From positions 1 through 64,000 of the forward strand of contig NZ_QXIO01000003.1 in the NCBI RefSeq assembly GCF_003545765.1: DNA of 64,000 nt. Reading direction: 5' to 3'. Shown here in pieces: positions 1-25,348 of this stretch; position 1 is the first letter of the stretch, and each line of letters begins with the position of its first letter. The translations under genes and the position numbers were made by a program. Below the pieces are notes generated by a model. It searched no databases. It worked only from the letters and a program-made list of their open reading frames with translations, and was not told the origin of the DNA. The stretch comes from Colwellia sp. RSH04. GTDB lineage: Bacteria; Pseudomonadota; Gammaproteobacteria; Enterobacterales; Alteromonadaceae.

Positions 1-530
1 TTGACGTGCGCTAAGATACCCGCCGCGGTAATGGTAATAACACCATTGTTATCAATGTGATAATAACCATCGGCCGAGGTTTGGCTGCCATTACTGAACG
101 TGTATGTGGTCACATCAGCATTATTCGCTAACGTTCCCACCACGGCATCGGCCACTTGGTTTTCTTCATAACTAAAGCTTTGATCAGCAACACTTGGCGC
201 CGTGTCATCCACATCCGTTTCACTTAAGGTCACGGTAATTGTCGTTTCATTACCCGCGGCATCTGAGGCAATAATGTCATAGTCACCGCTGTTCGCGCCC
301 ACCTCAAAATCATTGACGTGCGCTAAGATACCCGCCGCGGTAATGGTAATAACACCATTGTTATCAATGTGATAATAACCATCGGCCGACGTAGTGCTGC
401 CATTGCTGAAAGTATACGTTGCCACATCAGGATTATTCGCTAGCGTCCCGACAACCGCATCGGCCACTTGGTTTTCTTCATAACTAAAGCTTTGATCGGC
501 TATACTTGGTGGTGTTATATCACCATTATC
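1..530 (-). repeat. 312-bp in-frame repeats in the adhesin gene (array continues outside)
   Basis: The segment starting ttgacgtgcgctaagatacc at base 1 recurs at 313, a 312-bp offset (104 codons), with few changes over the following 180 bases. The array is cut by the window edge, so the copy number is unknown. Confidence 0.85.
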
Positions 531-2984
531 ATTCACATTTAATGTAACCGTTGCTGTATCTGTACCGCCATTCCCATCACTAATGGTATACGTAAAAGTC
601 ACTAAACCAGTGAAATTTGCTTCTGGGATATACGTTACGACACCGTTAACGAGTGTCACGGTACCATTTAATGGTTGAGTGACTGCCGTAACCGTTAACG
701 TATCGCCATCAAGATCACTATCATTAGTAAGAACATCGATAACGGTCGCGCCATCATTTTTATTGATAGAAACGTTATCATCAACAGCAATAGGGTTATC
801 ATTTTGAGGATCGACCGTTAAGGTAACTGTCGCTGTATCAGTACCACCGTTGCCATCACTGATGGTGTAGGTAAAGGTGACAACGCCGTTGAAGTTAGGC
901 TCTGGAATATAGGTAACTACTCCGTTTACAAGTGCCACTGTACCATTTGTCGGCTGTGTTACCGCCGTCACAGTTAAAGAATCGCCCTCAAGGTCGGTGT
1001 CGTTGCTTAACACATCAATAATAATCGCACTGCTATCTTCATCAAGTGATACATTGTCATCTACTGCAACAGGTCCATCGTTTACACCATTTACCGTGAC
1101 GGTAATTTCGTGAGTTTGACCATCAACAGTGCTCACAATAAAGGTTTCAGTAAAGCTTTCGCCAACTCCTAATTCTTGAACAGCAGCAAGTGTATTATCT
1201 ATGTTGTAGAGCCAATTACCCTCAGCATCGATAGTTAAAACGCCTAGCGTATTGCTACTAGTAACCGACGCAGGATCAAACGCAGCAGTATCACTGGTAT
1301 CTACATCAGTAACGGTTAAATGACCTGAGGTCGTTAATTGATTATTTACATTCACCGCGGTGTCTTCAGTCACTGAACCAACATCGGTATCGCCTGCTTC
1401 AAGGCTTACAACGGATACATCATCAACACCATTTACCGTGACGGTAATTTCGTGAGTTTGACCATCAATCGTGCGTACAATGAAAGTTTCAGTAAAGCTT
1501 TCACCCTCATCAAGCGACTGCACTGCCTCTAGAGTATTATCTATGTTGTAGAGCCAATTACCCTCAGCATCGATGGTTAAAACACCTAGCGTATCTTCAC
1601 TGGTAACCGACGCAGGATCAAACGCAGCAGTATCACTGGTATCTACATCAGTAACGGTTAAATGACCTGAGGTCGTTAATTGATTATTTACATTCACCGC
1701 GGTGTCTTCAGTCACTGAACCAACATCGGTATCGCCTGCTTCAAGGCTAACAACAGAGACATCATCAACACCATTTACCGTGACGGTAATTTCGTGAGTT
1801 TGACCATCAATCGTGCGTACAATGAAAGTTTCAGTAAAGCTTTCACCCTCATCAAGCGACTGGACTGCCTCTAGAGTATTATCTATGTTGTAGAGCCAAT
1901 TACCCTCAGCATCGATGGTTAAAACGCCTAGCGTATTGCTACTAGTAACCGACTCGGGATCAAACGCAGCAGTATCACTGGTATCTACATCGGTAACCGT
2001 TAAATGGCCTGAGGTCGTTAATTGATTATCTTCATTGACAGCAACATCTTCTGTTACCGCGCCAACATCAGTATCGTCCCCTACAAGGCTGACGATCGAT
2101 ATATCTTCGCTGCCTTGAATCTCTATATTAACGGTATGTTCTGTACCATCAACTGAAGTAACAACAACTGATTCAAATAAACTTTCACCTACATCTAAAG
2201 ATTGAATAACTGATAATTCATTATTTAATTGAAATTGCCAGTTACCGTCTTCATCAATAGTGAAAACTCCGTATTGAGTTTCTATAGAGTTTACAATAAA
2301 TTGCGCTTCATCTTCATTAGTATCAATTACATCTAAGCTACCATTAACGACAGTTAATGAATCTTCAATTGCTATGACTTGATCTTCACCGGAAATTATC
2401 GCTGGTCTAGGGGCATTTTCATCATCAGCTGGGGGAGTACTTTGAATTGAGCCTTCGCTGTAACTGGTATCAAAACCAGCCGTTACTTCAACTTCTTCGA
2501 TAGTTGCATCTATTTTAGGTGAAGTAGAAGAGCCTTGATTACCCGCTTCACCTGCGGCAGCTGCTTCAAATTCTTCGACAGAGGTTGGATCAACCCCATT
2601 TGCAATAAGCTCTTGTAAGTTATTTATCTCATCTTGGTTTGTAACCGTAGGATCTACGCCATTTAAAATTAACTGTTGTAATTGCTCAACATTTTGCTGT
2701 TCTATAGCTAGGACATCACCTGAAATCACTTGAGTTTTAGCAATAGCATTAGCGTTTTCATCCAAAGAAATGCAGGCTATACATGAAGGTTCAATAGCAA
2801 CAGAATTAGCATGACCATCAAATTGAACAAATACCCTTGCATCATTAGGTGTTAAAATTACATCTCCTGGGCTGACTTTATCCCCAGTTTTTAACGCTCT
2901 TTTTTGACCATCAGCATTAATGATTACTACGTTACCAACAACAGAAATAACGTTACCAACTTCAACCAGCTTAACTTCTTGCAT
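1..2984 (-). CDS. LapA-type giant adhesin, N-terminal part (3' end outside window)
   Basis: Open frame from an ATG at 2984 that runs off the window at base 1, so about 994 residues of a longer protein are visible. Residues 1-110 look like the retention module of LapA/BapA-type adhesins: a beta-rich start followed by two LQxLIxNGVDPT-like segments. An AAAAG stretch at about residues 138-143 then resembles the di-alanine site cut by the LapG protease, and a TAGFDTS segment follows. The rest is tandem cadherin/VCBS/Ig-like repeats rich in Asp, Thr and Val: about four 114-residue VCBS-like units, two 93-residue units ending in YTISDGNGGTD-type motifs, and 104-residue units at the window edge. No classical signal peptide is visible, as expected for type I secretion, whose C-terminal signal would lie outside the window. 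Likely anchored in the outer membrane for attachment and biofilm formation. Family call is firm; ligand unknown. Confidence 0.9.
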   Translation of the reverse strand, partial: MQEVKLVEVGNVISVVGNVVIINADGQKRALKTGDKVSPGDVILTPNDARVFVQFDGHANSVAIEPSCIACISLDENANAIAKTQVISGDVLAIEQQNVEQLQQLILNGVDPTVTNQDEINNLQELIANGVDPTSVEEFEAAAAGEAGNQGSSTSPKIDATIEEVEVTAGFDTSYSEGSIQSTPPADDENAPRPAIISGEDQVIAIEDSLTVVNGSLDVIDTNEDEAQFIVNSIETQYGVFTIDEDGNWQFQLNNELSVIQSLDVGESLFESVVVTSVDGTEHTVNIEIQGSEDISIVSLVGDDTDVGAVTEDVAVNEDNQLTTSGHLTVTDVDTSDTAAFDPESVTSSNTLGVLTIDAEGNWLYNIDNTLEAVQSLDEGESFTETFIVRTIDGQTHEITVTVNGVDDVSVVSLEAGDTDVGSVTEDTAVNVNNQLTTSGHLTVTDVDTSDTAAFDPASVTSEDTLGVLTIDAEGNWLYNIDNTLEAVQSLDEGESFTETFIVRTIDGQTHEITVTVNGVDDVSVVSLEAGDTDVGSVTEDTAVNVNNQLTTSGHLTVTDVDTSDTAAFDPASVTSSNTLGVLTIDAEGNWLYNIDNTLAAVQELGVGESFTETFIVSTVDGQTHEITVTVNGVNDGPVAVDDNVSLDEDSSAIIIDVLSNDTDLEGDSLTVTAVTQPTNGTVALVNGVVTYIPEPNFNGVVTFTYTISDGNGGTDTATVTLTVDPQNDNPIAVDDNVSINKNDGATVIDVLTNDSDLDGDTLTVTAVTQPLNGTVTLVNGVVTYIPEANFTGLVTFTYTISDGNGGTDTATVTLNVNDNGDITPPSIADQSFSYEENQVADAVVGTLANNPDVATYTFSNGSTTSADGYYHIDNNGVITITAAGILAHVNDFEVGANSGDYDIIASDAAGNETTITVTLSETDVDDTAPSVADQSFSYEENQVADAVVGTLANNADVTTYTFSNGSQTSADGYYHIDNNGVITITAAGILAHV
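531..1085 (-). repeat. two 279-bp repeats (93-residue cadherin-like units) in the adhesin gene
   Basis: The ctgtatc motif and its surroundings at 554 recur at 833, an offset of 279 bp (93 codons). The encoded units follow the pattern NDSDLDGDTLTV...YTISDGNGGTD, typical of tandem-95/cadherin-like adhesin repeats. The copies are clearly homologous but more diverged than the 342-bp units. Confidence 0.75.
1085..2110 (-). repeat. three tandem 342-bp in-frame repeats in the adhesin gene
   Basis: Units begin at 1085, 1427 and 1769 and are offset by exactly 342 bp (114 codons). Long stretches are identical between copies, for example the segment starting caccatttaccgtgacgg in each. A diverged fourth copy lies at about 2111-2440. 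Near-identity at the DNA level implies recent duplication or gene conversion. Confidence 0.9.
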
Positions 2985-3282
2985 ACAACTTTTTCCAAGC
3001 TTAATAAAAACAGACGGTTTGTTACAAACACGTAAATATAATTGTAGCAATTTTAAGCTAAAAATTAAACAAATTTCAGTTAAATAGCGCCAAAACTATG
3101 GTAAACAGCCTCTTAAAAGCAAAATAATGTCTTAACCTTATAAAGACTATAAATGTTAACAAACTGTATACCTTATACCTAAATTCATAAAAATGATTGA
3201 TTGTATTGGGTAAATTAGCATTATTGCTCTATAGTGCTAGACCATAGAATACTGATTAACTTAAATTAATAATGAGAAGCCA

Positions 3283-3855
3283 ATGAAAAACTTAAACCTT
3301 ACCCTAGTATTAATACTGATTATTAATCTTTTAAACTTTCGTATTGCTGTTGCTGACGAAGTAACATCAACTATTTCTACTTTTAAAAAATCTGAACAGT
3401 TAGCTCCTTTTTTTAAGAATGCTTATGGCTATGCTGTATTTCCAACAATAGGTAAAGGTGGTGTAGGCTTTGGTGGTGCTTATGGTAAAGGCTCTGTATT
3501 CAAACAAGGTAAAAAAACTGGCACCACAACAATGACTCAATTAACCTTTGGTTTCCAACTTGGAGGGCAAGCATTTAGTGAAATCATTTTCTTCGAGGAT
3601 AAGGCGACTTATTACGCCTTTACCAAAGGCAACTTTGAATTTAGCGCGCAAGCATCTGCCGTTGCTATTACTTTAGGTGCTAACGCTAAAGCAAGTACCA
3701 CAGGCGCTTCAGCCGGCACTTCAACTGACAGTGAAACCCAACAGAAAGGAGTATACCAAAAAGGTATGGCAACATTTACTTATGCTAAAGGTGGTTTAAT
3801 GTATGAAGCAGCGTTAGGTGGACAAAAATTCAGCTTTACTCCGATAGAAAAATAA
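3283..3855 (+). CDS. SYLF/Ysc84-domain lipid-binding protein, secreted
   Basis: 190 residues with an N-terminal signal peptide ending near AVADE (about residue 25). The remainder matches the bacterial SYLF (Ysc84-like) family: AYGYAVFPTIGKGGVGFGGAYGKG, a second Gly-rich strand TFGFQLGGQAFSEIIFF, and AKGGLMYEAALGGQKFSF near the end. In this family the central segment has short alternating Ala/Thr/Ser stretches, seen here at about residues 125-150. Members bind phospholipid and are usually periplasmic or outer-membrane associated; a precise bacterial role is not established. It is a single gene, divergent from the adhesin and convergent with the FGGY kinase. Confidence 0.85.
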   Translation: MKNLNLTLVLILIINLLNFRIAVADEVTSTISTFKKSEQLAPFFKNAYGYAVFPTIGKGGVGFGGAYGKGSVFKQGKKTGTTTMTQLTFGFQLGGQAFSEIIFFEDKATYYAFTKGNFEFSAQASAVAITLGANAKASTTGASAGTSTDSETQQKGVYQKGMATFTYAKGGLMYEAALGGQKFSFTPIEK

Positions 3856-23257: not shown

Positions 23258-23428
23258 ACCTTTAAGTTATTGGTACTTTGATTAATTATCTAAAAAAAAT
23301 TTATAAAAATCTAAATAAAACTACTACAATTAATACAGTTATGTTACTTATGAAAATAAAAAAAGATGCAAAAATGATAAAAAAATATAAATTAATTGAC
23401 TAATACTATCGTGATGAGAACACTATTT

Positions 23429-25348
23429 ATGACAAATAAAATTCACGAATATTCTACAACTCTTTTTAAGCTTACTCTATTAATAGCTTGCGGTTGCCTT
23501 TTAAATATATCTGCAATTTCAGCGGGTATAGCCAGCGAATCACACTCTTCTTGGATGGAGACCTCTTTTGAGCAATTACAAGAGCTAAATAAAAAAGATC
23601 CCGCGCTTGCCTTGGATTTTGCAGAAAAGCTCTATGCTAAATCATCTGATAAAATGAACAATGCCGACAAAGCATCACTATTTGCTAAAATGGCACTATA
23701 TTGTTCGTTTTTAGGTAAGTTTGATCAAAGCCAAGAATTTATTAACACCGCAAACACACTTTCTCCCGAGCAAAAAAGCCCAACCGCTATATCTCTTTTA
23801 CTGACTCAAGCAAGCATTTACGATTCACTAGGAAAAGCGAAAGAAGCATTAACTCTCTATAAAACAGCAGAAAAACACGCTAAAGAGAGCGAAGATTTTA
23901 GATCCCTCGCTGACAGCTATAGCTATTTAGCTGGCTATTATTCAATGAATCATAACGATATTGAAGCGATAAAATATTTTAACAAAAGCTATCATTTATT
24001 CGATCAACTCGGTGATGAACTAGAATTAGCTTATTTAAAAATACAGATGTCTACCTCGTACTCGTTACTTTATGATGACGAACAAGCAATACGCTACGCT
24101 AATGAAGCACTTGAATACTTTCTGAAACATGAATTGTTTTTTGATGCCTTATTTGCACAAAACGCACTCGCTTATAATTATTTACGTAAAAAGTCTTTTG
24201 AATTAGCCAAAGAATCATTTTATAAAGTCATTCAATTATCAAAAAAAGCCAACAATGAAAATTATACTGCTAGGGCATACTTAGGGTTAGCTAAAGTATT
24301 TTTAAACGATGAACAAAATGACAAGGCTCGATATTACTTTAATAAATACCAACAATATCAAATTCCAGTTAATACGCCTCATGCCACAGTAAATGACTTT
24401 TTATTGCTGGCAGAATTAGAATTAAATGATTTGCAATTAGATCTAGCGGAAAACGCAATTACCAGTGCAGAAAGAGTATTACTAACGTTAGAAAAAGAAA
24501 ATACATTATCAATTTACAGAAGATTTTATGATTTAAAGGCTAAATTAGCAACGCTTAAAGATGATTACAAAACTGCATACGCGCTACAATCAAAAGCAAG
24601 AAAACTACAAACTAATTACAGTAACACTGAACGAGAAAAAGTACGTTCTAAATTAAAAGTTATTTTTGATACTGACCAAGCATTATTAAAAAACAAATTA
24701 TTAGAACAAGAAAAACAACTTAATAGTATCGCGCTTGAAAATGCTCAAAATGAACAATGGTTACAAAACCTTATTATTGCAATTATTTCAGCCCTATCTT
24801 TATTGCTAACTTATTTTGTTTATCGACAATTAAAAACAAGTAAAGGGCTACAAATGCTCGCTAATACTGACTCGTTAACGGGCTTATCGAATCGGCGTTT
24901 TGCTTTTAGCCAAGCAGAAAAGTATTTAACTCAGGCAAAAAAAATAAAGAATAACTTTGCAGTGATTATGTTTGATGTTGATTTTTTTAAACATGTTAAT
25001 GATGAATATGGTCATACGGCAGGTGATACCGTTTTAAAAAGCTTATCTGTCTTAGCTTGTGGGTATATAAGAGCAAACGATATTATTGGCCGAATTGGTG
25101 GCGAAGAGTTTCTTATTATTCTTCCTGGCGCATCTTCAGAACAAGCAAAGGTTATTGCTGAGAGAATACGTTGTGCTACTGAAGACTTGATAGTCACCAA
25201 TGATAATCAAGAAATTAAAATTACCGCGAGTTTTGGTGTTGCTCACTTAACCCAAAAAGAAGAGTCGTTCAGTGAAATATTTAACAATGCAGATACTGCT
25301 CTTTATCAAGCAAAAGAGCAAGGCCGTAATAAGGTTGTAGCAATTTAG
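23429..25348 (+). CDS. membrane-bound TPR diguanylate cyclase
   Basis: About 639 residues from the ATG at 23429, preferred because GAGAA lies 8 bases upstream; ATG 23414 and TTG 23396 are alternatives. An N-terminal hydrophobic segment acts as signal peptide. Tandem TPR-like helical pairs (ALAYNYLRKKSFELAKESFYKVIQL and similar) fill about residues 40-400, followed by a coiled region, a membrane helix (NLIIAIISALSLLLTYFVY) and a C-terminal GGDEF domain. The active-site motif is GGEEF and the substrate motif DVDFFKHVNDEYGH is intact, so it should make cyclic di-GMP. The periplasmic TPR region probably senses a protein or peptide. It is unlinked to the adhesin, although c-di-GMP controls LapA-type adhesins. 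Confidence 0.88.
   Translation: MTNKIHEYSTTLFKLTLLIACGCLLNISAISAGIASESHSSWMETSFEQLQELNKKDPALALDFAEKLYAKSSDKMNNADKASLFAKMALYCSFLGKFDQSQEFINTANTLSPEQKSPTAISLLLTQASIYDSLGKAKEALTLYKTAEKHAKESEDFRSLADSYSYLAGYYSMNHNDIEAIKYFNKSYHLFDQLGDELELAYLKIQMSTSYSLLYDDEQAIRYANEALEYFLKHELFFDALFAQNALAYNYLRKKSFELAKESFYKVIQLSKKANNENYTARAYLGLAKVFLNDEQNDKARYYFNKYQQYQIPVNTPHATVNDFLLLAELELNDLQLDLAENAITSAERVLLTLEKENTLSIYRRFYDLKAKLATLKDDYKTAYALQSKARKLQTNYSNTEREKVRSKLKVIFDTDQALLKNKLLEQEKQLNSIALENAQNEQWLQNLIIAIISALSLLLTYFVYRQLKTSKGLQMLANTDSLTGLSNRRFAFSQAEKYLTQAKKIKNNFAVIMFDVDFFKHVNDEYGHTAGDTVLKSLSVLACGYIRANDIIGRIGGEEFLIILPGASSEQAKVIAERIRCATEDLIVTNDNQEIKITASFGVAHLTQKEESFSEIFNNADTALYQAKEQGRNKVVAI

Follow-up and report, generated by a model that had tools for sequence, protein, structure and literature searches.

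A LapA/BpfA-type adhesin N-terminus in Colwellia sp. RSH04 and the putative Lap system for its retention and release

The stretch of DNA analysed here (bases 1-64000 of contig C23 of Colwellia sp. RSH04, genome G000; hereafter the window) very probably encodes the N-terminus of a LapA/BpfA-type adhesin that is accompanied in the genome by a full Lap system, that is, a retained tether, release by the protease LapG, and control by LapD and c-di-GMP. The genes, their order, the retention module, the LapG-type site and the catalytic stretches were observed directly; the direction of export, the cleavage and the control by LapD are assigned from what is typical of the family. According to the proposed mechanism, the adhesin would leave the cell C-terminus first via its own type I exporter (LapB-LapC-LapE), and its N-terminal module would fold in the periplasm into a body too bulky to pass, so that the adhesin would remain threaded through the outer-membrane channel and serve as a tether on the cell surface. 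At high c-di-GMP, the inner-membrane receptor LapD, which has a degenerate GGDEF-EAL, would hold LapG. Once c-di-GMP drops, LapG would be freed, dock on the targeting helix and cut A143|A144 of an AAAG site, whereupon the cut adhesin would slip off and the cell would detach. The adhesin adds one more member to the known Lap kind. Seen from the window alone it is an orphan fragment, yet behind it stands the full gene set for release under c-di-GMP control, and the host genus is that of Litorilituus lipolyticus (Colwelliaceae).

The adhesin N-terminus in the window

The 5' part of the giant RTX adhesin gene, encoding 994 amino acids, occupies positions 1-2984 of the minus strand and is cut by the contig start. 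The reading frame opens at ATG 2984 and runs off the contig; since both close orthologues start with MQEVKLVEVG, this codon is favoured over the TTG at 3050 given in the ORF list. Behind the N-terminal module, domain matches reveal VCBS, Big_9 and cadherin-like extender repeats (816-2390, minus strand), and from residue 830 on there follow the first copies of an array of 104-residue repeats (3-497, minus strand), inside which the contig ends. The divergent neighbour of the adhesin gene encodes a Ysc84-domain protein (3283-3855, plus strand), orthologues of which are found at the same position in G292 (74% identity), a genome of this genus assembled as one contig, and in Litorilituus lipolyticus (80%).

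The retention-module pattern that the initial annotation had recognised at the adhesin N-terminus was borne out by a profile search: the first ~145 residues matched NCBIfam NF033682 (retention_LapA) with 75.7 bits at a cut-off of 50 (E 4.2e-21), well above chance level, and no second match to this profile was found in the whole genome at E <= 0.001. The match is composed of two segments that have profile positions 85-104 in common, because the helix-DP linker of the module is duplicated. The beta-rich retention domain itself covers approximately residues 1-95 (2700-2984, minus strand), as seen from NF033682, from PDB entry 5ix9 and from the strands of an AF2 model. When the PDB was searched with the profile of alignment A1, 5ix9, which is listed as 'Antifreeze protein' and which we take to be the N-terminal region of the M. 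primoryensis adhesin, was the only strong match (E 1.7e-10). A search with the single sequence also returned Scone-R and Scone-E (3.4e-8 and 2.4e-4, respectively), an ankyrin-repeat protein and a PQQ entry; these were rejected as likely beta-repeat or linker similarity, and the Scone entries drop out of the list obtained with the A1 profile. The AF2 model of the module was built from alignment A3 (two sequences, those of the window and of Litorilituus) and places strands within residues 2-55 (pLDDT about 66-84 by block); with a mean pLDDT of 56 and a pTM of 0.39 it is poor, and cannot therefore back claims about disulfide geometry or a fold search.

An AAAAGE site, assigned by the initial annotation to residues 138-143, is indeed present, its actual position being residues 141-146 (2547-2564). 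The AAAG within it (residues 142-145; 2550-2561, minus strand) conforms to the [T/A/P]AAG consensus and is the predicted LapG site. It stands after LQELIANGVDPT, a helix-DP element, and the same layout of a targeting helix, a DP turn and then [T/A/P]AAG is given for LapG substrates in the available text of PMC13090378. V. cholerae LapG cuts CraA at AAAG, and CraA with ARRG in its place resists cutting (PMC6890996, passages available); by analogy, the scissile bond here would be A143|A144. The targeting helix with its GVDPT is found by motif in two copies, at residues 99-113 (2646-2690, minus strand) and at residues 120-134 (2583-2627, minus strand), to which the AF2 model adds, with low confidence, helices at residues 99-107 and 117-128. 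Where other modules have a single helix, it is copy 2 that lines up with it.

An adhesin C-terminus, exporter, LapG and LapD on a second contig

The prediction of the initial annotation that LapG, LapD and a type I exporter would be found elsewhere in the genome came true: LapG and LapD are each present once, and a type I exporter is there as well. LapG, LapD and the T1SS C-terminus of an adhesin were each matched once genome-wide, and the three matches lie no more than 11 kb from the end of contig C2. From this end toward lower coordinates the order is adhesin C-terminus, ABC, HlyD, TolC-type, OmpA-like and LapG, with LapD on the opposite strand. The RTX and C-terminal signal that were expected beyond the window did turn up here, on an 838-residue adhesin part (C2:135465-137981, minus strand) with VWA, RTX repeats (PF00353) and a T1SS_VCA0849 signal (TIGR03661), although its membership in the window's gene is a matter of probability, which is weighed below. 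The exporter (C2:130460-135404, minus strand) consists of an ABC protein (734 aa), an HlyD-type protein (463 aa) and a TolC-type protein (441 aa), which match Pfam ABC, HlyD and OEP, and between it and LapG lies the gene of an OmpA-like protein of 203 aa (C2:129849-130460, or L002:8850-9461; Pfam OmpA).

LapG (226 aa; C2:129139-129819, minus strand) matched Peptidase_C93 (PF06035) over the cut-off. Against PDB chains 4u65 (1.5e-53) and 4fgo (2.5e-50), whose listed molecule names are generic and which we assume to be LapG, the GDCED, HMVL and LILD stretches are aligned, and the stretches of the Cys-His-Asp triad are kept. LapD (664 aa; C2:127133-129127, plus strand) has the expected LapD_MoxY_N, HAMP, GGDEF and EAL domains, HAMP being just below the cut-off (24.6 vs 25), and matches PDB entries 3pjw, 3pjv and 4u64, presumably LapD structures under generic molecule names. 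Active enzymes of these two domain families carry the canonical GGDEF and EAL motifs. Where these are expected, LapD reads NGGSF, NELLAKF and ERFG; judging from its family, a receptor degenerate in this way should bind c-di-GMP and not make or break it. The same gene order, adhesin-lapB-lapC-lapE-OmpA-lapG-lapD, is found gap-free in G292, with identities of 90% for lapB, 87% for lapC, 87% for lapE, 66% for OmpA, 78% for LapG and 72% for LapD. The respective identities to G338, which was taken as Litorilituus lipolyticus RZ04 (Colwelliaceae per NCBI), are 93, 94, 95, 83, 87 and 79%.

The assignment of the two contigs to one adhesin has to be weighed against the alternative that the ends of C23 and C2 come from separate repeat proteins, the adhesin being exported elsewhere, which we regard as extremely improbable. 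It is true that C23 and C2 are not joined in the assembly, and since no exact overlap of at least 12 nt was found between their ends, the join is one that we infer. However, the 104-residue repeat has five matches in the genome, confined to the start of C23 and the end of C2, and between the two contigs its copies are 91-96% alike. Moreover, the genome holds a single match to the N-terminal module and a single T1SS_VCA0849 C-terminus, near the C2 end (137981), with no second one found, and in G292 both ends belong to one uninterrupted gene of 3889 codons that has the same module, 17 repeat copies and a VWA plus RTX end. The assembly of L. lipolyticus likewise breaks within the adhesin, its cluster being spread over two contigs. 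The 838 residues on C2 are most likely the C-terminus of the window's adhesin.

Hardly more probable, and in our opinion very unlikely, is that the retention module serves as a permanent anchor, with LapG and LapD acting on another protein and AAAG being a mere linker. Such a view could draw on the genomes of the family, in which LapG was matched in 106 of 246 and the module in 61 of 246, so that by these models LapG and module do not always occur together. The present genome speaks against it: module, LapG and LapD were each matched once, LapG and LapD being clustered with an adhesin C-terminus. In addition, each of the three species of the genus that carry the module has an intact helix-DP-AAAG element. 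The reading preferred is that of a tether released by LapG under the control of LapD.

A diguanylate cyclase at 23.4 kb, which the initial annotation had brought into connection with the adhesin, is a different matter. The gene (23396-25348) codes for a TPR part and for a GGDEF domain whose GGEEF motif is intact, yet its product is one of 46 GGDEF matches in the genome, LapD's included, and lies ~20 kb from the adhesin; a special tie between the two is thus unsupported.

Targeting helices and a cysteine pair among retention modules

A match to the module was found in at least 109 of the 197 genomes of the order, in 61 of the 246 of the family and, at a stricter limit, in 24 of the 274 of the class. 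As only three of the 39 genomes of the genus have the window-type module, the system is patchy; three others (G194, G262 and G318) have a different, weaker-scoring module. Another Lap-type cluster, in which LapD-, LapG-, OmpA-like and exporter-type frames were recognised by visual inspection, was noted in G194 (L101, L102) and in G374 (L103), also of this genus, a short different N-terminal module being present on another contig of G194 and none being found in G374. For comparison, 165 modules were assembled from the matches listed, each different sequence as far as the cut site being counted once. They come from loci of the order, family and class searches and from 80 additional stretches; some genomes give several (three in G141, two in G178), the set leaves out at least five over-cut-off matches of the order and family and most of those below the cut-off, and two of the 28 class-level loci (L182 and L188) were not recovered by the survey profile.

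By a simple motif count, 95 of the 165 modules have one helix-DP unit, 66 none and four two, and two-helix modules can have been missed, since the motif finds no unit in those 66. The four comprise the modules of three species of the window's genus and one module of genus g30. All three species of the genus with the module have the helix-GxDPT unit doubled, 21 residues apart, and such a tandem targeting helix may add LapG docking or reach. The g30 module (L151, genome G083) has a long linker with its two helix-DP units 36 residues apart, a doubling which is perhaps independent of that in the window.

The module contains, in addition, a cysteine pair, C68-I-A-C71 (2772-2783, minus strand), the sole cysteines in the 994 + 838 residues sequenced, and in alignment A1 the CxxC column is aligned. 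A CxxC at residues 66-72 was found in 15 of the 165 modules, three of them in the window's genus, ten in g30 and one each in g11 and g64, and 147 modules have zero cysteines before the cut site. Two more have a single cysteine at residue 15, off the CxxC column, and the remaining one (L041) has two, which come from a start placed too far upstream. No CxxC was found in the 26 class-level modules or in the 20 last-added ones, so that it is a minority trait. A g30 module near those with CxxC (L012/L207, genome G128) has T-x-x-T at this column, both positions differing together; judging from such sequences, the cysteine pair seems to be gained or lost jointly.

Cysteine content was also compared in 20 further adhesins chosen by hand, ten with and ten without CxxC. 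Eight of the former are complete, six having no other cysteine and two having one or two more; in the two incomplete ones, other cysteines are absent from the portion read. Seven of the ten complete adhesins without CxxC are cysteine-free and three have one to three cysteines, and the idea that retained adhesins lacking CxxC are wholly cysteine-free was dropped for this reason. The cysteines of the 3889-residue adhesin of G292 are confined to the CxxC pair, and in adhesins of about 3800-6000 residues that carry the pair, it often accounts for all cysteines. These counts indicate that cysteine is generally rare in such adhesins and that the CxxC subset keeps it in the piece retained in the periplasm.

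The simplest reading of these observations is that CxxC may form a periplasmic disulfide that stiffens the plug. That the pair is instead a metal site or functionless is a serious possibility, albeit one to which we give less than even weight. CxxC can bind metal, and the AF2 model of the module is uninformative around it; on the other hand, there are only two cysteines, no partner ligands were identified in the module, and the pair changes together, with T-x-x-T at the column in L012 and the lone cysteine of two modules standing at residue 15 instead. An extension of the disulfide reading, which we consider rather unlikely in its entirety, would define a subtype of Lap adhesins in which the CxxC of the module, once oxidised in the periplasm, holds the plug fast in the exporter channel through its disulfide. 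Retention would then depend not only on LapG but also on oxidation in the periplasm, and the doubled docking helix added in the window's lineage would tune cutting. Were the cysteine pair to act as such a clamp, a part of the Lap family would gain a second, oxidation-dependent control of attachment. A literature search of partial coverage came upon no account of paired cysteines in the retention module of a type I adhesin, nor of a doubled targeting helix, so that a prior report may exist: terms for either are absent from the first 300,000 characters of PMC8277102, cysteine and disulfide are both absent from PMC12077191, and the disulfide passage in the available text of PMC12805831 deals with other proteins.

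Comparison with known Lap systems

The system resembles LapA-LapEBC-LapG-LapD of P. fluorescens in its retention module, the helix-DP-[T/A/P]AAG arrangement, the BTLCP protease and the degenerate GGDEF-EAL receptor. It differs in having an OmpA-like gene, a duplicated targeting helix and a CxxC, none of which, to our knowledge, is part of the P. fluorescens LapA system.

In gene order, the system has a counterpart in S. oneidensis MR-1, where BpfA-AggABC-SO4321-BpfG-BpfD (SO4317-SO4323) follow the same order, the OmpA-like gene between the exporter and LapG included (PMC4523816, available text). In the same source SO4318-SO4323 are called an operon, whereas in the present cluster lapG and lapD lie on opposite strands and are convergent. 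The CxxC and the two targeting helices are features of the module described here, the BpfA module standing outside this comparison. The OmpA-like gene of the bpf cluster (SO4321) also affects biofilm, according to the part of PMC4523816 available. There, the bpfG and bpfD mutants are both described as biofilm-defective, and the model proposed is partly unlike the Pseudomonas one; for this reason, the sign of LapG control in the present system is not certain.

Other adhesins are handled by LapG in a similar way. CraA (AAAG) and FrhA (PAAG) of V. cholerae are likewise cut by LapG (PMC6890996, passages available), and CdrA of P. aeruginosa is likewise released by it (PMC4694147, available text). 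Cysteines of CdrA are thought to form an anchoring hook, as stated in the available portions of PMC11898600 and PMC7616799. CdrA, however, is secreted by the type Vb route and has its hook at the C-terminus, whereas the adhesin described here is of type I with an N-terminal module, which makes CdrA at most a functional parallel.
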